NCBI GenBank assembly: GCA_000447185.1
Contig: KE647291.1
Location: 1 to 37,337 of the forward strand
DNA from: Vairimorpha apis BRL 01
Lineage: Eukaryota; Microsporidia; Nosematidae
Length of the DNA stretch: 37,337 bases
Reading direction: 5' to 3'
This document shows, piece after piece, positions 253 to 36,450 of the stretch. The notes below the pieces were generated by a model. It was not told where the DNA came from, searched no databases, and saw only the letters and a program-made list of their open reading frames with translations. The position numbers were made by a program, and so were the translations under genes. Each line of letters begins with the position of its first letter. Position 1 is the stretch's first letter.

Positions 253-2422
253 ATGGTATCAATAATTACAACGGTTGTAGCACATATAGATCATGGAAAA
301 ACAACACTTATAGATTGTTTAGTTGCTGCACATGGTAAAATATCTAAATCTTTAGCTGGTGATATGAGGTTTATGGATACACGTGAAGATGAACAATCGC
401 GTGGTATAACACTAAAAATGAGTGCTATAAGTGTTATGAACAACAATACAACTCATACTATTATAGATACTCCTGGACATGTTGATTTTGAATTTCTTAT
501 AGAACAGTCTTCACTTTTAAGCGACTGTTTTTTAATAATTATAGATTTAAAAGAAGGTATTACACCACGTACTCATTCACTTATAAAATATATAAATAAG
601 CACATGACTATTTTAGTAATAAATAAAATTGACAAAGTTCCAGAAAACACAACATTTTTAATTTTAGATATTATAAATTTAATAAATGAAATGATCGGAG
701 AAATGATATTTACTTGGGAAAATAATAATATTATATTATGTAGTGCTATTTTGTGTTATGGTGTAAACTATCAAATAAGTAAAAAAATATTTAGAAAAAA
801 TACAACTATAGAGCATATTGTTAAATGCATTAATTATATCGAAAAACAAATTTTTTATTTTGAAAATAAAAAGCCAAATGAAATTGATAAATTGTGTAAA
901 AAATTTTTTGTTGCAAATAAAACAAGAAAATCTATATTGAGTTCTATTATGTCATTATCTGATAGCATTTTTAATAGTTTAGAAACGATTTATAAATATG
1001 ATCAAAAAGAATACATAGCTTATGTTTCTTTAGGATTAATTAAAAACGAGTATAAAAAGGAAGATTTGCTTTTTATTACTAGATTGCATTATGGAATTCT
1101 AAAAATTGGTACTGTTTTGTATAGTCATGAATGCGAACACAAAATAAAAGAAATATATAAATATACTTTGAACGGACTTGAGAAAATCGATGAAATTACA
1201 GGATCAAATTTAATATGTATAAAATCTAATGTTAAAAAAAACACTTTTTTATCAAACAAGCCTCATAATCTTTTATTTAAAGAAGTAATGTATCCATTTT
1301 ATAGATCATTTTTTAAATATAATGATTTTTATGAAAGAAGCTTTAAGTGCAATTGTCAATACAGAACAATGTTTAAAACTGAAAATTGATAAATTTAATC
1401 AATTATCTGTTATGTCATCTGGTAAAGTACAGGTAGAAAAAATGTTGGAAGATTTAAAAAAATGTGGAATTTATTTGGAATATGTTGAAAATGATTTTAT
1501 ATTTTGTGAAAGTGTACGGGAAAAATATAAAGAAATATTTGAAGGTAATTTAAGCATTTGTATATATCCAAATACAAATAATATAGATGAAGATAATGAA
1601 AGTAATTTTTTTGAATTTTTTAAATGCAAGTATGGTGAAAGTTCTAAAAATGAACTAATTTTAAATGTAAACTCAAGAAATAAAAATTCGAAAAATAATG
1701 ATGTTTATTTAAAAAATAAATCTAAATTTGTAAACCAACAAAAACTTATTTTAGATAATAATTTGTCCAACATACAAAAACACGAAAATAATAGGCGCGG
1801 TAATATGAATATTGAAGATCAGATTGAATCAATTTCTTTACATAAAGTTTATAAAGATGAATTTAATAATATTTTTAAAATAAAATCTAAAAAATGGTAT
1901 GACTTAATAATTAGTATATTGGAAATTTTTACATTAAGTGGTCCTATTATTAACGAAAATATACGTGATACAACGTTTGAAGTCACTTTTGATGAGTATA
2001 ACTTGACTACTGATCAAGTTTATTATTTTATTAAGGATAAAATTAATCATGTTTACCATAAATCGTCTCCTCAAATTTCTCCTTTTTTTTACCATGTAAA
2101 AATTTCTACAAAAGATGAATATTTAGGAAAAATTTATACTTTATTACAAAAAAATAAATGTTTTTTGAAAGGTGAAGAATATGAACAAAATACCGGTTTT
2201 TATATTTTATATTCACTTGTTCCTCATTTTAATTATGATTTACTTGTAGAAAATATTCGCATACATACAAAAGGAACTTCATACATGTCAAGTACTGAAT
2301 ATGGATTTTTTCATTTGTTAGATTTTTCTGAATATATTGACAAATTACGTAAACTAAAAGGATTACAAACAGATGAGAAAATTATCGATAATCCAGAAAA
2401 ACAAAGGACTTTAAAAAAGTAA
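253..2422 (+). CDS. EFL1: EFL1/RIA1 ribosome-assembly GTPase, one frame break
   Basis: Translational GTPase that, with SBDS, releases the anti-association factor eIF6/TIF6 from late cytoplasmic 60S subunits. The first part (253-1389) has P-loop AHIDHGKTT (residues 10-18), switch I ending RGIT, DTPGH (72-76) and NKID (124-127). The signature MDTREDEQSRGIT separates it from true EF2, which has a different switch I. The second part (frame of 1322-2422) carries domains III-V: a QLSVMSSGKVQVEKML stretch and the EFL1-type C-terminus KGLQTDEKI...EKQRTLKK. The frames overlap and must be joined near the T5 run at 1325-1329. The join needs one base fewer or two more, unlike the other breaks here, which are one base short. 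The joined length of about 720 residues is short against about 1,110 in yeast, as expected for microsporidia. The start is fixed by CCC at 250-252. Family assignment is confident; whether the gene is really broken is unknown. Confidence 0.9.
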
Positions 2423-10826: not shown

Positions 10827-11267
10827 ATGTCAAAGTACACAATTAGAAACTTAGAAGAGACAGATTACAAATTAGGATACATGGATTGTATAAATGAACT
10901 TACAGAACCAGTTAATGTGGCTGAAAAAGATTTTATTAATAGATTAAAATTTTTAAGGAACAAACAAGATTATCATAGTATTGTTGTTGTAGACGATCAA
11001 TCAGGTTTAATCGTAGGTTGTGGTACTTTGTTTTTAGAATATAAATTTATTAGGGGTCTTGTTACTAAAGGGCACATCGAAGATGTAGTAGTGAAAGAAG
11101 ATAAGAGAGGAAGTGGAATTGGCACATTGATAATTAACCATTTAATTAGTATCGCAAAAGAAAAAAATTGTTATAAAATATCTTTAGTATGTAATCGAGA
11201 TAATGTTAAATTTTATAAAAAATGTGGATTTCAAGAAAAAGAAGTAGAAATGGTAAAATATACATAA
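10827..11267 (+). CDS. GNA1: glucosamine-6-phosphate N-acetyltransferase
   Basis: GNAT-fold enzyme that transfers acetyl from acetyl-CoA to glucosamine 6-phosphate, on the route to UDP-GlcNAc and so to chitin, a main component of the microsporidian spore wall. Counting from the ATG at 10827 (146 residues; yeast 159), GHIEDVVV (82-89) is the family's substrate-side strand, KRGSGIG (93-99) is the acetyl-CoA pyrophosphate loop, and NRDNVKFYKKCGF (123-135) is the GNA1-specific C-terminal signature. An in-frame ATG at 10776 would add 17 very hydrophobic residues. I prefer 10827 because MSKYTIRNLEETDY matches where family members begin, but the longer form would be a membrane-anchored enzyme and cannot be excluded. 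The frame is intact. Confidence 0.9.
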   Translation: MSKYTIRNLEETDYKLGYMDCINELTEPVNVAEKDFINRLKFLRNKQDYHSIVVVDDQSGLIVGCGTLFLEYKFIRGLVTKGHIEDVVVKEDKRGSGIGTLIINHLISIAKEKNCYKISLVCNRDNVKFYKKCGFQEKEVEMVKYT

Positions 11268-11408
11268 ATAAAATTTCTTAGATTTTTGAGTATTAAAATA
11301 AACAAAAATAAATAATCTAGACAATTTATAATTTAATTAAATATGTTCTAAAAAGACACAGTATTTTAATAAATTTACTATTTATTTTACTAATATTAAA
11401 ATAAAAAA

Positions 11409-15164: not shown

Positions 15165-17635
15165 TTAAAAATAAATAAATTCAGGAATGATCCGATCTAA
15201 ACTAAAAATTCCACCATCAAAATCTTCTTCACACAAAAATTTATAAGGATATAACACCAAATTTCCAATTATTTTTTTAAATTTTTTATTTTTTAAATTT
15301 GGTTTCATTGATTTAATTTCATAATAAATTTTCTTGTTTATTACATGGTTGTTAGAAAAACATTTAAATACATCAAAATACAATTTAGAATTACTTTTTG
15401 CAATCTTTTTTATTTCAAAAAATATGCTATCATTTGACAAATCTAAAATATTACATTTTAAAAGTTTATAAATTTGTTTGTGTTTTTTTTTGTAAATTTT
15501 TATTTTTTTAAAGTCAAGATGTTCATGTAATAATTTTTTCAAAAGATCATTTATCTGATTAAATTTAAAATCTTCAACATATATGCATGACTCTGTATCT
15601 CTATCTCCCAATAAACTTCTATCGTTAATATTTGCGCTTCCTGTGATCATTTTTAATCCATCTGATATAATTATCTTAGAATGTACATATATCTGCTCAT
15701 GTTTAAAATTACATACATCATAAATCGATTTATGAAATTTTTTTAGAGATAAAAAGATTACGTATTTTTTATAATCGATACCTGCTTGTTTTAAAACATT
15801 TATAAATGAGTTTTTGTTTCTATATATGCAATCTGTTTGTATTCTTAAAATATGCGCCATAACAGAATTGCATAAATCTAATTCAAATGCTGGTAGAAGA
15901 GGAATTACAATATAAACTTTAAATTTTATGTTATTTTCGTATGCATTTTTAATTTTCTTAAATATTTCAAATCCTAATAAATTTTGAGGATCCGATATGT
16001 CGCCTTTTACAAATTTTGTTATAAAAAATTGATTTTCTATATATAAAAACTTTTTAGTGTTTCTAATTAAATTAATGTAAGCCAAATAAATTGAGTTTTC
16101 TGTTTGGCTTTCATAAGACCACATTCCAATAGATCTTAAAGCTTGACAAGTAACAAATGGATACATTTCTTGTATGTTATTATAAAAAAAAGATTCATTT
16201 GGGACGATAATTTTATCAGATAGATAATTCCAACGTTGAATAAAATGTAATGCTATATCAAAAGCTGTATCTCCTATAATTTTGGTTTGTATATCATGCC
16301 ATGGCATTCTAGGTGTATTTTTTCTATCTATAAGACAAATATCTGCTTTTTCTAATCCAATAAAATCTTTTCTTAAAGGATTTGAAAAATCCTTACCAGG
16401 CCATACATACCATTTTTGTTTGTGTTTATCATATATTTTTTCAAATAATAGATGTTCTGATGTATCGTACCTACCTAAACATAAATCAATACCTCCTGTG
16501 TAAGCTATTTTTTGATCAATAATAACCAATTTTTCATGATGTGTCCAATATATGAAAGTATTTGGTGTATTATTAGGATGTCTAATAATATTTACATTAT
16601 GATGAAGATTATTAAAAATATTATATGTATAATCAGAATTGATATTAACAGCAAAACTTATTTCATGATAAATTAATATATAAATTTTGACGTTTTGTCT
16701 AGCTTTTTTTTTAACAAATTATCTAAACGATGTTTTTTTTGTAAACCATTTTTTCTTTTTAAATACAACCCAGGAAAGATCCACCATCCTGCAATAAAAA
16801 TTTCAGATTTTGCATTTTTTAAAGAATTATATAAATCTAAAAAATAATTTTTTCCATCAATGTAAAAATTACAAATATTGTTAAATCTTAAGGGCGCATA
16901 GGATTTTATATTGCTTGAAAAACTAGTAATTTTCTTTAGCATTTCATAATGTAAATCTTTAACTCTTTGTCTCATAAGTGATGTTATATTTATTTTAATA
17001 TTATTATCTATTATGACCATCTTGGAATAAATTGGTCCATTTATCAATTTAAATTCAGTATCTTTTGTAAAAAATATAATTTTTTCAATTTTTTTTCATT
17101 TTTATAATCATAAAGTATCAAATGTGTAGTTTTACAGATTATATAAAAAGATTTATATAATTTTTTTGAAAAAAAGTTACAGCATATTTTTGAATTATTT
17201 AAATCTGTTGATAAAACATAAAATGTTTCTTCATATATTCTAGGACCAAAAAATGAAAATTCAGAAATTCTAAAAAATAAAAAAACATCATTTATCTTTA
17301 AAATACTTTGGTTATTAAAAATTTCATATATAATTTCTAATATTTCTGTTTTAGATAAAGAAAAAACGTTTTTATTTTTTTATATGCTTCAATAATAATG
17401 TTTTTTTTTCTAAATTTGCACAAAATTGTAAAAGTTTAATTTTATATTTTTTAATACTCCATTCATATATACCATATTTTAAATAAGCAGTAAAGTATGA
17501 AGTTTTACAATCGTCATCACGAACTTCTACGTTGATTAAACTAGGTATAATTTTAAGTGTAGGCGCTATTAAAATATTTAATGGTATTTTGATACACTCT
17601 TCTAGTAAAATTTTGTATCTTAAAAAATGTTCCAT
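15165..17635 (-). CDS. PLD1: phospholipase D (PLD1/SPO14 type), several frame breaks
   Basis: Hydrolyses phosphatidylcholine to phosphatidic acid and choline, a signalling and membrane-shaping reaction. Four frames join into about 820 residues. 17635-17372 is a PX-like N-terminus (EVRDDDCKTSYFTAYLKYGIYEW). The next frame has a PH-like region (SKKLYKSFYIICKTTHLILYD). 17047-16673 and on has SYAPLRFNNICNFYIDG and AGWWIFPGLYLKR. Then comes HKD motif 1, HHEKLVIID near 16516-16542, followed by GGIDLCLGRYDT. HKD motif 2 is HSKIIISDGLKMITGSANIN, and the C-terminus is the PLD type (LVLYPYKFLCEEDF). Both catalytic HxKxxxxD motifs are whole. Breaks lie at 17369-17381 (T7 plus T5), 17080-17096 (T6 or T8) and 16704-16712 (nine bases), seen on the plus strand; each is explained by missing bases in a homopolymer. 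CCC at 17649-17651 supports the start. SPO14 in yeast has about 1,380 residues. Confidence 0.85.
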
Positions 17636-28794: not shown

Positions 28795-31700
28795 TAATTT
28801 TTTTTATTTATATATTTTTAATATGACGAAAATTACACATTTTATTACAATTATGATTTTTTTTAATTTTCAAGTTTTTAATTTATTAAATGAATATTTG
28901 TTAAAATTTTTTTGATCTATATAAATATTTTACTTTTTTTACATTTAAATCAAAACATTAATTTTAATAAATGTCAATTTTTTTATTTAATTTATTAAAC
29001 AAAATTTGTTTATGAAAAAAAATAAATAATTATATTTTTTTATAACAGTTAATATTATGTTTTATTGATGCTCATATAAATTCGATTAAATTATTTTTTT
29101 AATTTTAACTTCTAGATTTTAATTAAAAATTTCTTTAAAAAATATTAACATTAATGATATAATTTAATTTAAATGTGTATTATATAATTATTAAAATTTA
29201 ATATTTTTTATTTATTCATATTTAATGATTATCAATATAGTAATTTATCAATTATTATTATGATTTTTTATTTACATAAATACATAATTCATTATTTTTA
29301 AATATTTTGAATTTTCTTAATAATAATTAAAAATTATATTTTTCTTTCATTTTTATTTTTAAAAATAAAATTTAATGGTTAGTGTACAAAAAAATTACAT
29401 ATAAAGTCAATAATTATAAAAAAAATATACTAATAATTTGTAAACTTTATATAGGTAATAATTATTTTATAAATAAATACTAATACGATTTACATAATAA
29501 AAATTAAATTTATTTATATAAAATTAAATTTTAATACACATATTTAAACATTTAAAAAGAAAAATAATACATTACTTTAGATATAAAAATTTAAAATATA
29601 ATAAACTAGACGTATTAGATCTGTACCTAACTAAAAATAAAATTTACATAAATAAATTTTATTAATTTTTAAATTGTTTTAAAAAAACATTATATTATAT
29701 TTTATATACGAAAGATGTTAATTTTTTTAGATAATTGATCTTTAAAATATAAATTAATAAGAAAATAAAAAAGAAGAATTTTATAAAATAATTAAATTGC
29801 CTGACCATTAGTATATTTGAAAAAGAAATAGACTTTTAATATTAAAACAATAAATATGATAAATAAAATATAAAATAAATTTATTATATATCATAAGGTT
29901 GATTATATTTAATATACACGGATCATCGTGTTAATAAATATTATATATATGTGTAGCTGTTTTATATATATAGATAATTATTTATATTATTAAAAAAATA
30001 CAATTAATTTATTTTTTTATAAATATTATTTAATATTAGTGTAATTTTAAGTAGGTTTTTGGAAGAAATTCATATTTGAATAATTTTTTTTGTAAATAAT
30101 AAAAAAAAACTATAAAATATTTATTTTTATTTAAATTTGAACAATACATAATAAAAATATATGATTTAATTTATATTTTTAATAAACAAAACAATTTTTT
30201 AGCTAACTTTACAATACTGAGCAAAAAAATTATTTTATTAATGTATCCAATTTTATAATAGTTTTTTAGAATCAAACTAAATGAATAATTTTTTTAATAA
30301 AGTTACTTTCATTTATTTATAGTTTAGAATTTTAATTTTTTTATTTTAAATTAGTTTTGATAAATTTTTTTAAAAAATAAATATTTTGTCGTTTAACCTT
30401 TGATTTTTTTATAATTTTAATTTAAGCTTTTTTATTATGGTATGTAATTATTTGTCATAAATAGAATTAAATTACATATACAATTCTTAGAATAATTATT
30501 TTTTTATAAATCTTATAGCATTAAGTATTACTTAAATATAAAAATTATAATTTTCGCATAAAACAAACCTAATTATAATAACAACTTTTATAAATTTGAA
30601 AAAATTTTCTAAAATGATTTTTAATAACAAAAGAGTTATAAATACATGTTATATAGTTTTATTAAAAAATTTAAAAATTTACTTTGTTTATAAAATTTCA
30701 GTTCTAAAATAAATAACATTTGAATAATTAAAAAAACATTTAAAAATATGTAATAAAAAAACCATGAAATGTAAGCTATAAAATAAAAAATTATTTTACA
30801 ATAAATCTTTTTTTATTATCAGAACATATAAACAATAAACAAAACAAGTATATAAAAATCAATTAAATTGTTTTTTTAGTAAATTTGTATATTAATAATT
30901 TGATTTAGTTTATATTTTTATATATAAATAATTTATAAAATATATATATTATTTGGTTTTTGTATTTTTATAAAATGTAAAGTCAATAAAAATTATATAA
31001 AAAATTAATAGTTGATTAATTTATGTATAATATGAATAATTTTATATTATAAATATAAAAAAATCTATTTTTATATATAAATTTTATAATAATAAAACTA
31101 ATAGCGAAAATATAATTTTATTAAAAAATAATATTAATAATATTGATGATATGTTTAAATTTTGTAAAATTATTTTTTTAATCTTTTTTATTCAATATAT
31201 TAATATAATTACATCATAAATAACAGTAATTTGCTTTAAAATAAAAATCATAATTTAATTTATATATTAAAAATAAAATTTATTAATTGTTTAAAAATAC
31301 GTTTTTAATTATGATTAAATATGTATCATGTATATTAGTAATATATTGCATAAAAAAGATTAAAAAATATAATTTTACAAAATTTAAACATATCATCAAT
31401 ATTATTTATGTTATTTTTTTGAGAAATTTTAAATACTCTAAAATAATTAAAATATCTTTTTAATATATAAAAATTTAAACAAATCTATACAACATTTAAC
31501 GTATTAATAGGAAATTACTACGTTTTTAAATGATGTATGTTTTATACATTCTTAAAATTAAAAGAGTAAAAACCTTTAATTTGAAATAAAAATTTATTTT
31601 TTTATTATCTCTATAATTGTTCTATCTTAAAATAATTGTTTGTCTTTTTTACAAATACAACACAGTATAAATTAATTAGAGGTTGTTTTTGTTTAAAAAC

Positions 31701-31969
31701 TTCATTTTTTCATAAATTTTTTATAGTAAAGATTTTAAAACAAAATAATGTATACTGAAAAAAATAATTATTTAATAAAAAATTAAAATTAATAATAATA
31801 ATATCGTTTTTACATAAATATTTATTACAATCAAGATATATGTGCAGAACAGATGTTGTTTTTTATAATATTAAAAATATTTTAGGGTTTAAAAATAATT
31901 TAAATAAACTTATTTTATAAAAAAATTTCTTTTATAGAATAAAAATTATATTAAGTCTCGAGATGAAAT
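28795..31969. other. 3.2-kb A+T desert
   Basis: The longest empty stretch: close to pure A/T on both strands, with no frame above about 60 codons and no CCC-headed start. The only structured spot is a short palindrome at 29916-29931 (ACACG, six-base loop, CGTGT). This may be structural or repeat-derived DNA; I see no gene. Confidence 0.6.
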
Positions 31970-32935
31970 TTGAAGCGACAGAAATGATCTGGAAAGAATG
32001 GCGGCTATCTTAGCGGTTTAAATAAAGCAGGAACATATTTTGCTACTATAGAAAGATATTTTAAAATAAAATATTATATGAAAGCTGTGAATGTTGATCA
32101 GTTACTTCAAGTTAAAAATAAATCTTAAATAACGAGATATCGAACAAAACTTTACACAAAAAGTTATTTAAGAGTTTACAACATGATGGTGTATCAATAA
32201 AAGAATCCTCAAAATGGCTTAGCAAAGGAAATAACCAAGCTAAACATGAAGCAAAATTATGCTTTTTACAAGATAGGAATGTTTTCTTTAATGAAGGATG
32301 AATGTCCCCTCATTTTAACCAAGCTAGAAAAACATTAGATCACATATGGCCACAAGATGCGAATGTTAGATCACGATCATATGCGCAGACAATGCTATTG
32401 TTAAATGCATTCATTTGTTATTGTGTAATAAATATAATATAGCAATAGGAATAAATAAATTGAGAGGACATTTTGTCCAACAAAAAGTCGCAATTAAATA
32501 TGTTGAAATAAGTGCATTAAGACCATAAAAACAGACGTCAAGATAAGGTATAATAAAACCGATATATTTAATTGACAAAAGTAAGAAAGAACAACTTTTT
32601 GTGAAGATAAAAATTACCTCACTTGACAATTTGTAAAAATATGAATAAGAAAAACTTAGGAAATATGATGAACCTACATTTGAATTGGATCTGCTACATG
32701 GATGTAAGACAAAGATAATACCATATATGAAATGTGGTATTGTATGGTGAGTAAATATTATTCTAAACACTTAAAAGAGCTTGGTATAGCTGACCGAATT
32801 GAAACGTATATTCAATCCACAACTCTTAACAAAATTCTTATAACATTTAAATGGTGCATAAGAGAGGAGACGGATAACAGAAACCGTAAAGACGGACTAC
32901 CAAACTATTTTTTTTTCAAGGTCCGATACTAGCAT
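31970..32935 (+). mobile_element. LINE 3'-third relic, copy D (restriction-like-endonuclease type)
   Basis: The longest relic. Across frames and stops it reads, in order: a linker (GLNKAGTYFATIERYF, AVNVDQLLQ); SSKWLSKG and LCFLQDRNVFF (about 32210-32295); MSPHFNQARKTLDH, where a CPxC...H...C zinc knuckle would stand but with its cysteines lost; RYNK with KPIYLIDKSKK, at the place of the PD...D endonuclease core; KLRKYDE (32652-32670); KIIPYM (from 32713); and ELGIADRIETYIQS near 32780-32820. A zinc knuckle followed by a restriction-like endonuclease after the reverse transcriptase is the layout of R2/R4/Dong LINEs, described in microsporidia. No reverse-transcriptase core is present. Many stops show decay. 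Copies A-C match its last third. Confidence 0.7.
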
Positions 32936-33640
32936 TAACAAATAATATAATGAAAATGACTCTCAAATAAACAATTTTAATTTAAAATAAAAGTTTTATT
33001 TATTTTTCTATGATTATTAAAGTAATTTCATAAATATTTAGATAAAAATTACTTAAAAAATTATGTTTTTTTACTAAATATTGATTAAATTTATTTATGT
33101 TAAACAATTAGATAAAATTTTTAAAGTTTTTATGTTAACCTATACTATTTTTTACATGTAGTTTAAAATAATTAAAATGAAAATACAAATATTTTGTATT
33201 AAAATAACCCTACATAAGTTAAATTTTTTTAATTATAAAATTTTGTTATAAAATTGGCATTCTAAAAAAAAGTTAATTAAATATATTTAAATTGACTTTC
33301 AATCCATAAAATACTTTTTTCTGTAATTTTTAAACGCTATTTTGTAACTTATTACAAAAATGTAAATAATTTTATAATGTATATAATATTTTTGAATACA
33401 AATGTTTTTGATAGTTTTTATTTGCATAAATTTTTACAATATAAAATATTAAATTATTATTGAGATCTTTTAAAAAATTTTAATTAAAATTTATATATAT
33501 GATAAAAATTATAATAATATTATCTATCAAATTCAATTTTATAATGATATAATATGAAAACATTATTGTATTTGTTGTTATCGTTCGAACTAAACATATA
33601 ATTGAAAGTGGTTTTTTTTATTGATAAATTGTATTAATCG
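32936..33640. other. A+T desert
   Basis: No frame or fold supported. A CCC near 33205 has no open frame behind it. Confidence 0.6.
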
Positions 33641-33659
33641 TTTCACATCAACACATGAG

Positions 33660-33775
33660 TTTCTTATCTCAAACCTAACCTAAGACAGACAGCTTTAGGT
33701 CTGCCTACAACAGTATTTTTTTTTAATTATTCCTTTTGATACCGTTGTCTCCACAACAACGACATGTAAAAGAAG
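33660..33775. other. GC-richer island with two hairpins
   Basis: Two clear inverted repeats in a GC-richer patch. AGACAGAC (33683-33690) pairs with GTCTGCCT (33699-33706), seven of eight positions, 8-base loop. CGTTGT (33743-33748) pairs perfectly with ACAACG (33756-33761), 7-base loop. A T9 run (33716-33724) after the first hairpin could end a plus-strand RNA polymerase III transcript, with ACA close to that end. No protein-like frame. It could be a small structured RNA (H/ACA-like at most) or a mobile-element end; I cannot decide. Confidence 0.35.
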
Positions 33776-33920
33776 ATTTTTTTTACATAAAATAATAAAA
33801 ATAATTAATTCAAATATTCTATTATTATTTATCATAATTTAAACTTTTAGATGTTGCAAATAATCGCGTTAAAATTATAATTTTTTTAATATTTGTTCTT
33901 AAAAAGGAGTAAATTTTTTA

Positions 33921-34090
33921 GTGCAGTTGATAAATTTATTCTCCGAAAGTAAAAATCAATTTGAATTTGAATGTCAACAAAAAGAATGGCTAGAAATTAA
34001 TAACAATAAAAAATTATAATGATATTTATACTACTTTCAGTATTGTTTTTATTCATATTAATTATTGCTCTGAGTGCAAAAGGTCAATAA
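33921..34090 (+). CDS. possible small tail-anchored protein, broken frame, start unclear
   Basis: One frame from about 33921 reads an acidic/polar stretch (SKNQFEFECQQKEWLEI) up to a stop at 34017-34019. One frame over, an ATG at 34019 opens a pure membrane segment (MIFILLSVLFLFILIIAL) that ends KGQ at the TAA 34088-34090. One extra A in the A6 run 34008-34013 would join them into a small protein with a C-terminal anchor, the same type of break as in the conserved genes. No ATG with a CCC signal is seen upstream, so the start is unknown. Family not recognised. Confidence 0.3.
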
Positions 34091-34522
34091 ATAAAATAAC
34101 ATATGTTTATAAAAAAATATAAATAAATTTTTTAAGCTTTAAAACTAGTTCTTATATTTTTTAAAATAAATAAAATTTAAAACTTAAAAAACATTGAAAT
34201 TATTAATAATTATTTATTTAGTAACTAATAAAACAAAAAATACAAAAATTCCATTTGAAAATTAAAAGTTTTAAATTGCATCAATAAAAAAATTATTATT
34301 ACCTAAAAATACTAAATTTAATAAAAAATGTAATTATAAAATATTTGTAACCTTCAATAAATATTTTTCAGAAAAGATTAATGTTTTAAAATTTTTATTA
34401 GTTAGATTTGAGATTAAAAAAGAAAATTTAAATTCATCACTTAAAAATAAAAAAATATTTTTATAGCAATATAATCTTAAAAATAAGTCATCTTTGACGG
34501 CAATATTTAAAAAAATTAAACT
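34091..34522. other. A+T spacer
   Basis: A minus-strand frame of 81 codons spans 34334-34579 and runs into the MRP RNA candidate. Its first 18 codons would be RNA sequence, so I do not call it in full. The remainder (from about 34525 down) has no start signal but is a little richer in G and C than the desert. Confidence 0.4.
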
Positions 34523-34528
34523 AAAAAA
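34523..34528 (-). terminator. T6 run ending the RNase MRP RNA candidate
   Basis: Six T on the minus strand, beginning two bases after the 3' strand of helix P1. A run of T directly after the last helix is the usual RNA polymerase III stop. Confidence 0.55.
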
Positions 34529-34680
34529 TGAATAAAGAGTAAGCCTCATTTGGTTAAGTAGACCAATACTCAACAGCATAAAACTATTTTAACGAAAAAA
34601 ATGTCGATTAAGGTGCTTTTTCAGCGATAATTTCCGAGGACTTTCCATAGAGACGAGCTCCATTGCTGTTCTTCTATTCC
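34525..34680 (-). ncRNA. candidate RNase MRP RNA
   Basis: About 155 bases, minus strand, folding by eye into the P/MRP plan. P1: GAAUAGAAGA (34679-34670) with UCUUUAUUC (34538-34530), one bulge. P2: AACAGCA (34670-34664) with UGCUGUU (34578-34572), 7 of 7. P3: AUGGAG (34663-34658) with CUCUAU (34652-34647). CR-I: GGAAAGUCCUCGG (34646-34634). P8-like hairpin: GCU, loop GAAAA (34622-34618), AGC. A P19-like hairpin: UUGGU with ACCAA (34566-34550). CR-V/P4 3' strand: GAGGCUU (34547-34541), which pairs with AAG(U)CCUC of CR-I leaving U34640 bulged, the universal P4 bulge. A T6 run follows. CR-I close to GGAAAGUCCCCGG, the GARAR-type loop and a P19-like hairpin favour MRP, which cleaves pre-rRNA in ITS1, over RNase P. 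Its 5' end is 37 bases from a divergent ATG. Fold done without software. Confidence 0.75.
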
Positions 34681-34707
34681 TTAGGGTAAAAAATAAAAAA
34701 TTTTAAA

Positions 34708-34710
34708 CCC
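34708..34710 (+). promoter_or_regulatory. CCC start signal of the tiny divergent gene
   Basis: CCC then 7 bases and the ATG at 34718; same spacing as at the RING and kinesin genes. Confidence 0.5.
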
Positions 34711-34717
34711 TATTATA

Positions 34718-34863
34718 ATGATCATTGACGAATTAGAAAAAAACTATAATAAATTTATTTATGTGTTGGAAAAAAAATGTTTAATAGCAAAAAAGAAATA
34801 TTGGAAATTATAAACCTCATGGAAAATAATGCACTTGAAATTTTATTCAATCCAGAATGTTAG
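34718..34863 (+). CDS. tiny protein of unknown function, one frame break
   Basis: From the CCC-headed ATG at 34718 one frame gives MIIDELEKNYNKFIYVLEKK and then ends at 34811-34813. One frame over, after the A8 run at 34770-34777, it continues NSKKEILEIINLMENNALEI, then LFNPEC, stopping at 34861-34863. One extra A in the run joins them into about 47 residues, mostly helical. Its TAG overlaps the TAA (34860-34862) of the minus-strand gene that converges on it, so the two genes share stop bases. The start signal, the tight packing and the protein-like text on both sides of the break support a real gene. It could be a small subunit of a larger assembly; I do not recognise it. Confidence 0.5.
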
Positions 34864-36450
34864 CCAATATCTTGTTCTATTCTATATATTAGTAATTTTT
34901 TAGCTTTAGATTCTTTAAAAATTAAGTTTATTAGTATTATAACTTCTGTATTATCAAGATATAATTTTCTGGACAAATAAATATCAGAAATTTTTCCTAA
35001 ATCATTTGTTAAAATTATATAAACTGAATTTATTCTTTTAAAAGATAATATATTTTCTTTTGATATGTTATATGACATTTCAATTAAATATTTTAAAGAA
35101 TCAGATAGTTCTCTGATTTTTTCATTTTCTAAAAACGTCATACATAAAATATTATTTACTACGTTTGTATAGATAAGATTAAAAAATGTAGTTTCAAATA
35201 ATACATAACAATTTTTCGGAACATATACTTTTAAAGACTCCAAAAAATCAAAATGTTTTTCTTTAAAATAAACTTTTAAAATAAGCGAATTTTCTTGTAA
35301 ACTTTTTTCAATCACTGTACTTTTTCGAACGATGTCCATAAAAGTGTTTTCTTTGATTTCTAATAAGGCTGAAAGATTAAATTTCTGAATAGAAAAAGAA
35401 ACATCAGCAAATAAAACAAAATAATCTTCATGTGTTAATAATTTTAATAATGCACGATCAATTAATTTTTTCGCTTTTGTAATTCTTTTAGAATTTATAG
35501 ATTCAAAAACTTTTAAACAAATATTAAATTTATGTAGTTCTTCTGAAATATATTTTGGTAAATAATTACTTTCTTCTTCTATCTTGACTAAATTATTCGA
35601 TTTTTTAGATTTTGATAATCTTATTATTTCTGTCATAACACAATCCAATTTCCACTCATTTTCATTAATAATAAAAAATTCACTATTTTTTAAAAAATTG
35701 TTTGTAGCTATAAAATTTGTTTTTTCAAGTTTGTTCGTTAACAATCTTAAGTTAAGATTTGATTTAAAAATTTCTAAAAATATATCTCCAATCTGTGGTT
35801 TTTTTAAAATTTCTAAATCTACAGGATTAATAGAATTAAAGTATTTTAAATCTATAGATATCTGTTTGTACGTTAAAAACCAAAAAAATAATAATATGAA
35901 TTATCATCAAATATTTCAAAATCACATACCAAAATATCGTACATCTCTTCAAATAATATATCTTTGATTCTTTTAAAGCAATCAAAGTAATATTCATCTT
36001 TTAAAAATAAAAAAATTCATTAATATCTTTAGAAATTTTTAATACTTTATAAGTTCCATATTTACATTCATTTTTTAAAGAAATCTTTGCAAATGTTTCA
36101 CTAGAAATAGATAAATCATAAATTAATGAATTTGTAAAACTTATACACTTTTCCATAATAACTTTTTTATCGTTTAAAATTTCAAATAATGCCTTTATTT
36201 CCGAAATTGTGTAGCAGTCTTTAGAACTTAAATCAATTCTTTTTATTTCATTTTCAATCTTCTTATATTCTTGTTCTAAATGGTCTTATTTTTAATTCTA
36301 AACTTTGACTTAAAATCAGGATCCAATTTCTATTTTTAAACTTGCTGTTTCATTTTCTAAAAATGTAATGTGTGTTTTAATTTTATAAAAATCAAAAATT
36401 ATACTTTCAATATCTTGAACATCTTGATATAAATTATTTATTTCTTCCAT
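34860..36450 (-). CDS. coiled-coil protein of unknown family, several frame breaks
   Basis: Starts at the ATG on 36450 with CCC 5 bases upstream. The first frame reads a coiled coil (MEEINNLYQDVQDIESIIFD, HITFLENETASLKIEI) and stops. Two shifts near 36260-36320 lead to LEQEYKKIENEIKRIDLSSK, ALFEILNDKKVIMEKC and KYGTYKVLKISKDINEFF. Breaks at 36003-36015 and 35875-35888 (A runs on the plus strand, each one base short) lead on through EYYFDCFKRIKDILFEEM and ISIDLKYFNSINPVDLEI into the long open part that ends at 34860 (ALLKLLTHEDYFVLFADVSF, YIILTNDLGKISDIY). Total is about 520 residues. A helical protein with an N-terminal coil and no catalytic motif would fit a vesicle-tethering (COG/exocyst/Dsl1) or kinetochore subunit, but this is a guess. 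A gene is well supported; identity is not. Confidence 0.6.

Follow-up and report, generated by a model that had tools for sequence, protein, structure and literature searches.

A predicted RNase MRP RNA gene in an intergenic spacer of the microsporidian Vairimorpha apis BRL 01

The minus strand of positions 34527-34683 of the DNA analysed here, a stretch of 37,337 nucleotides of Vairimorpha apis BRL 01 (contig KE647291.1, hereafter the window), most probably carries the RNase MRP RNA gene of this nosematid microsporidian, a reading to which we assign a probability of about 0.94 on the basis of sequence comparison. The covariance model of the RNase MRP family (RF00030) matches this intergenic span of 157 nt over its full length (model positions 1-266 of 266), with 49.3 bits and an E-value of 6e-13 in a cmscan search of positions 34300-34900. 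The gathering score of the family being 50, the locus falls 0.7 bits short, and at gathering cut-offs Rfam yields no match across the whole window; the locus is therefore an example of a gene hidden by an Rfam cut-off by less than one bit. An earlier note, made from the letters alone, had proposed an RNase MRP RNA or a minimal RNase P RNA of about 155 bases at this place and had suggested a covariance-model check, which returned the match from end to end but under threshold, a shortfall that formally speaks against the proposal and does not decide the case. RNase MRP is an enzyme that cuts ribosomal RNA and occurs throughout the eukaryotes. As a kind of gene, RNase MRP RNA is already known, microsporidia included, and the present RNA adds a member of unusually small size.

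Family match and architecture of the RNA

Across the assembly (5,960,447 bases in 223 contigs), the locus is the sole RF00030 match at E<=0.001, with an E-value of 1.4e-12 and all five of five candidates scored, and a DNA search of the genome finds it in single copy; a better MRP RNA elsewhere, which the earlier note had named as a counter-finding, did not turn up in this search. Among 14 control genomes, the model gave one match, in Thermotoga maritima and below the cut-off, which we take to be the RNase P RNA of that organism. The window contains a single copy of the P4 pattern AAGTCCTC-N(75-100)-GAGGCTT, which never appears in 100 shuffles. Compared with the printed Rfam consensus, 21 of the 22 pairs of P1 to P3 form, 13 of them changed on both sides, one on one side and seven the same. 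With the 3' letters of these helices redrawn at random, 21 pairs were reached in 0 of 200,000 trials, a figure that overstates the case, the alignment having been chosen by the model. The MRP core pattern was found in no stretch of the viral contigs and genome contigs scanned for relatives.

All elements of the RNA lie on the minus strand and follow each other as in the RF00030 consensus of 266 positions, which features P1, P2, P3a, a P4 with a bulged U, a GARAR P8, P19 and the conserved regions CR-I, CR-IV and CR-V. The 5' strand of P1 (34673-34682) pairs with its 3' strand (34527-34536) at nine of ten positions and the 5' strand of P2 (34665-34670) with 34572-34577 at six of six, both 3' strands being placed by the Rfam alignment and a pairing check. 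P3 (34647-34663) is a plain hairpin of 6 bp, all of which form, with a loop of 5 nt, lacking both an internal loop and P3b. The adjoining CR-I, GGAAAGUCCUCGG (34634-34646), was located by the RF00030 alignment and by direct reading. It contains the 5' strand of P4, AAG-U-CCUC (34643-34636), which pairs seven out of seven with GAGGCUU (34547-34541) within CR-V, AACCAAAUGAGGCUUA (34540-34555 in the RF00030 alignment), U34640 being left bulged. This is the helix described in the earlier note, where GAGGCUU was set about 90 bases after CR-I; the distance between GAGGCUU and the paired CCUC measures 88. The P8 hairpin GCU-GAAAA-AGC (34615-34625) with its GARAR pentaloop also stands in the order claimed there after P1, P2 and P3. 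Further on, CR-IV, AGUUUUAU (34578-34585), carries a two-base insertion against the MRP consensus in the Rfam alignment, and a P19-like hairpin GAGUA/UACUU of 5 bp occupies 34556-34571. A T6 run, read directly at 34523-34528 and presumably an RNA polymerase III-type terminator, overlaps the final two bases of P1, which agrees with the stop that had been seen after P1. The mature RNA probably extends from 34682 to about 34523-34525, close to the ends near 34680 and 34525 expected before; the match measures 157 nt.

Set against the consensus, the RNA lacks the P3 internal loop, its second domain is nearly gone and CR-IV is longer by two bases. A hairpin of 7 bp with one bulged U at 34589-34611 is a possible P10-like element and possibly all that is left of the second domain past P8; a statement that the RNA has no P10 was dropped, as this hairpin could be P10. 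A P5 of 3 bp, GGA/UUC (34633-34635 with 34594-34596), can be paired, and it has bases in common with the hairpin at 34589-34611, so that the two are mutually exclusive. The local energies are +1.4 for P5 with P8, -2.8 for P8 alone and -4.3 for P8 with the hairpin, and a P5 in this RNA is doubtful. The free RNA has a fold no more stable than those of its shuffles (-33.2 kcal/mol, z -1.34, 15 of 200 shuffles equally good). Its minimum-energy fold has P1, P2 and P8, and P3 and P19 are missing from it; the P4 pseudoknot cannot show in such folds, and a nested model that includes P5 and P7 and omits P4 reaches just -12.0. Folded locally to minimum energy (-6.0), the second domain pairs up CR-IV, an arrangement that we judge, without proof, to be unlikely in the particle.

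Distinction from RNase P RNA and competing readings

A separate nuclear RNase P RNA is encoded at 11129-11362 (+) of contig C77, with an RF00009 score of 67 bits against a cut-off of 28, reproduced in the 501 bases around it. This RNA of 234 nt features a specificity domain, a P3 that is a plain hairpin, and a T run at its end. It resembles the RNA of the window in its catalytic core, the simple P3, an ACCCT before P1 and the T run, and differs from it in its length, its P-type specificity domain and the loop of the hairpin GCC-GAAAU-GGC, which stands at a place like that of P8 and is one letter off a strict GARAR. The GARAR loop has been described as unique to MRP (PMC3737539; PMC13184271, in part), and the passages of PMC13184271 on the marks of MRP name a P5 of 3 bp beside CR-I, a GARAR P8 and a CR-IV of six bases, that of RNase P counting eight. 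Since the P RNA on C77 carries GAAAU, GARAR separates the two kinds of RNA less well in this genome; the mark put forward in the earlier note is present here as GAAAA, but it weighs less than was assumed, and a statement that the P RNA has nothing GARAR-like was withdrawn once its loop had been found. The absence of ACAGAA from CR-V was likewise abandoned as a separator, the RF00009 consensus itself reading AACCCAAU there. A rule for MRP given in PMC1796607, as far as its text was available, asks for AnAGUnA 0-3 bases ahead of P2; AUAGUUU of CR-IV fits six of these seven positions, the final A being off, and lies 3 bases ahead of P2.

It is very improbable that the RNA of the locus is an additional RNase P RNA in minimal form. 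P1 to P4 are common to both RNAs, the GAAAU loop on C77 comes near to GARAR, and CR-IV counts eight bases to P2 in AGUUUUAU, which is the P-type length, the P RNA on C77 having AGUCUAAC there. Against this, RF00009 matches C77 as the sole place in the genome at E<=10 and gives nothing at the MRP locus at that threshold (15 of 28 candidates scored; four of the 14 control genomes matched, none over the cut-off), and cmscan, by which only the best among overlapping matches of a clan is kept, shows RF00030 at the locus. Moreover, no CR-II/CR-III element is seen in the 29 bases (34614-34586) that separate P8 from the AG of CR-IV, whereas the RNA on C77 has this region. The assignment to MRP, also favoured in the earlier note, was retained because the family model matches over its full length, a specificity domain is missing and the P RNA is encoded separately; next to these, the GARAR loop is a lesser sign.

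A decaying MRP pseudogene, with the working copy missing from the assembly, is just as improbable. The assembly is divided into 223 contigs, and the model of the microsporidian SSU rRNA (RF02542) has no match in it at E<=0.001, with 5 of 24 candidates scored and 9 of the 14 control genomes matched, so the rDNA may be absent from it; in addition, one gene of the window is apparently split between frames. What speaks against decay is that CR-I, CR-V, P4 and P8 are intact, that all but one of the consensus pairs of P1 to P3 form, that a start signal and the T6 run are in place, and that a second copy was not found genome-wide. A chance resemblance in an A+T-rich spacer can practically be dismissed: helices of A and U arise easily at such a composition and the thermodynamic z-score is just -1.34, but the whole-genome E-value and the absence of the P4 pattern from the shuffles weigh heavily on the other side. 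An RNase MRP RNA gene accordingly stays the preferred reading.

Start signal, protein partners and presumed function

Microsporidian mRNA genes are described, in the available parts of PMC2803860, as bearing a CCC-like and sometimes GGG-like signal right before the start codon; for N. apis, ACCCT has been reported and for N. ceranae TTTTTTTACCCC, with GGG below significance in Nosema (PMC11592040, in part). In 236,717 bases from 21 sources of the present genome (the window and 20 further stretches), CCC occurs within the last 15 bases before the ATG in 17 of 44 open reading frames of at least 200 aa, 0.6 being expected, and in one of the 44 at -60 to -46. Within the window, 6 of 13 frames have CCC at most 10 bases before the ATG, two of its 15 frames being excluded as apparent parts of split genes. 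An ACCCT (34683-34687, minus strand) also stands directly upstream of the MRP RNA; the sequence TTTTTTACCCT ends at 34683 and P1 begins at 34682. The 5' end of the RNA was therefore placed there, and the position of the signal argues for a living gene. A TATA-like TATAATA (34711-34717, minus strand) lies about 35 bases upstream, which is weak evidence in a very A+T-rich genome. The RNase P RNA gene has ACCCT as well (L002 1492-1496, where L002 1501-1734 corresponds to C77:11129-11362 on the plus strand), two bases before P1 as drawn (P1 from A1499, Rfam match from 1501). Elsewhere, the genes for P, MRP and U6 RNAs are commonly transcribed by RNA polymerase III. The U6 snRNA gene of this genome (C3:7277-7374, plus strand; L011 1501-1598; 51.6 bits) has GGGG at a distance of one base ahead of the match and a T5 run six bases past it. 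All three RNA genes looked at (MRP, P and U6) hence have CCC or GGG at most two bases from the predicted start, a regularity noticed post hoc. In the 236,717 bases ARAGORN found no tRNA genes, against which the CCC signal could have been gauged. The main text of PMC2803860 mentions neither tRNA nor polymerase III nor RNase. The ACCCT ahead of both the P and the MRP RNA gene points to a microsporidian CCC signal that extends beyond mRNA genes.

The known RNAs closest in kind are those of E. cuniculi and 'Nosema locustae', the latter presumably an Antonospora. RNase P and MRP RNAs were reportedly treated broadly by Piccinelli 2005 and Rosenblad 2006. The literature ranks the MRP RNAs of E. cuniculi and 'Nosema locustae' as the shortest (PMC1796607; PMC3228867, each in part). 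The RNA of 157 nt falls into the size class of the shortest MRP RNAs, no rank among them being implied. Like the present RNA, both are stated to lack P3b in the available text of PMC1796607, a trait thus already given for microsporidian MRP RNAs; the present RNA differs in belonging to the Nosema/Vairimorpha clade. A literature search for RNase MRP with microsporidia, Encephalitozoon or Nosema, in which few subscription journals were covered, returned no MRP RNA of this clade by title. In Giardia intestinalis, P and MRP RNA alike have a short P3 that lacks an internal loop, as is the case here, and the MRP RNA spans 189 nt by its coordinates (isolates A and B; PMC3228867, in part), against 157 nt in the window.

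Several protein subunits can be read from the same genome: Pop1_N in two pieces, both over the cut-off, Rpp30 (67 bits), Pop5/Rpp14 (53.6 bits) and Rpr2 (35 bits), whose best PDB row is yeast Rpr2 (E 5.4e-5). Rpp29 is weak, with 23.3 bits against a cut-off of 27, and it is similarly hard to find in E. cuniculi, where POP4 was reported only via its feature architecture (PMC3919561, in part). A second Rpr2-like zinc ribbon of 90 aa on contig C187 (L009 1429-1701, minus strand) gives a weak Rpr2/Rpp21/Snm1 match of 20.9 bits, and a database search with it returned two proteins, one identical and one a relative at 76%. On mixed support, this protein is a possible MRP-only subunit and counterpart of Snm1. 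Both RNAs of the P/MRP type and a protein core are now read from one Nosema/Vairimorpha-type genome, so that this RNA-protein enzyme can be examined in one of its smallest forms.

The P3 internal loop is absent from both the MRP RNA and the P RNA on C77, P3 being a simple hairpin in each. In yeast the Pop6/Pop7 pair and in human the Rpp25/Rpp20 pair binds P3, according to parts of PMC7351766 and PMC11621453. Genome-wide, Alba (PF01918) and Rpp20 (PF12328) gave no candidate at E<=10, a result that is weak in a fast-evolving genome. The literature search found no paper on Rpp20 and Rpp25 in microsporidia, and PMC11621453 does not mention the group. The loss of the internal loop and of the Alba/Rpp20 proteins may go together, and the simple P3 in both RNAs along with the undetected proteins offers a testable case of joint shrinkage of RNA and protein. 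As a tentative picture that we hold to be possible rather than probable, the nosematid RNases P and MRP would have been stripped jointly: the P3 internal loop would have been lost in both RNAs, and with it Rpp20/Rpp25; apart from the core, P8 and a single small hairpin, little of the MRP RNA would be left, and its CR-IV would have drifted to RNase P length; the zinc ribbon of 90 aa would be the MRP-only Snm1 counterpart; and the P, MRP and U6 genes would share a CCC/GGG start signal with the mRNA genes.

In the proposed mechanism, transcription would begin just past ACCCT, at about 34682, and end in the T6 run, at about 34525. The RNA would fold into the catalytic core of P1, P2, P3, P4 and P19, which RNase P has too, and into a minimal second domain that bears the P8 hairpin with its GARAR loop. 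It would form a particle with Pop1, Pop5, Rpp30, Rpp29 and perhaps the second Rpr2-like protein, in which the GARAR loop would dock on P4 near the active site. For the family, a core of P4, CR-IV and CR-V is described as cutting single-stranded pre-rRNA, with the GARAR loop next to P4 and touching the substrate (PMC7351766; PMC3737539; PMC13184271, each in part). The nosematid particle would likewise cut single-stranded pre-rRNA, the SSU-LSU rRNA spacer being the likeliest substrate. Two reported points complicate this picture: LSU precedes SSU in N. bombycis and its kin, and a cited work on E. cuniculi disputes, by its title, that the presumed ITS1 is fully excised.

Surroundings in the window

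The gene upstream of the MRP locus (34860-35900, minus strand) encodes 258 aa from its first ATG within an open frame of 346 aa, and no CCC lies within the 60 bases before that ATG. Its protein matched nothing in Pfam at E<=0.1 and no sequence of the PDB at E<=1; eight stretches of viral contigs matched it, none of them a relative. On the other side of the MRP locus, about 5.5 kb (28818-34333) have no ATG-started frame of 80 aa, and a search of three frames of this region gave no Pfam match over the cut-off. Raised G+C and short, stop-broken frames at 32112-32932 perhaps mark a decayed mobile element. Farther off, a phospholipase D-like protein (15165-17020, minus strand) has PLDc_2 and PLDc at 15165-16307 and a second frame upstream (16673-17020), which may be its displaced N-terminal part. 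An elongation-factor-like GTPase (253-2422, plus strand) consists of the overlapping frames 253-1389 and 1322-2422, with GTP_EFTU followed by a below-cut-off EFG_C, and carries a frameshift, whether true or from the assembly. The CTP synthase of the window, which points to a nosematid host and bears out the microsporidian origin assumed in the earlier note, is identical at 85% to another database sequence, at 68% to that of Vairimorpha bombi (Nosematidae), at 63% to that of V. necatrix, at 61% to that of Nosema granulosis and at 59% to that of N. bombycis.
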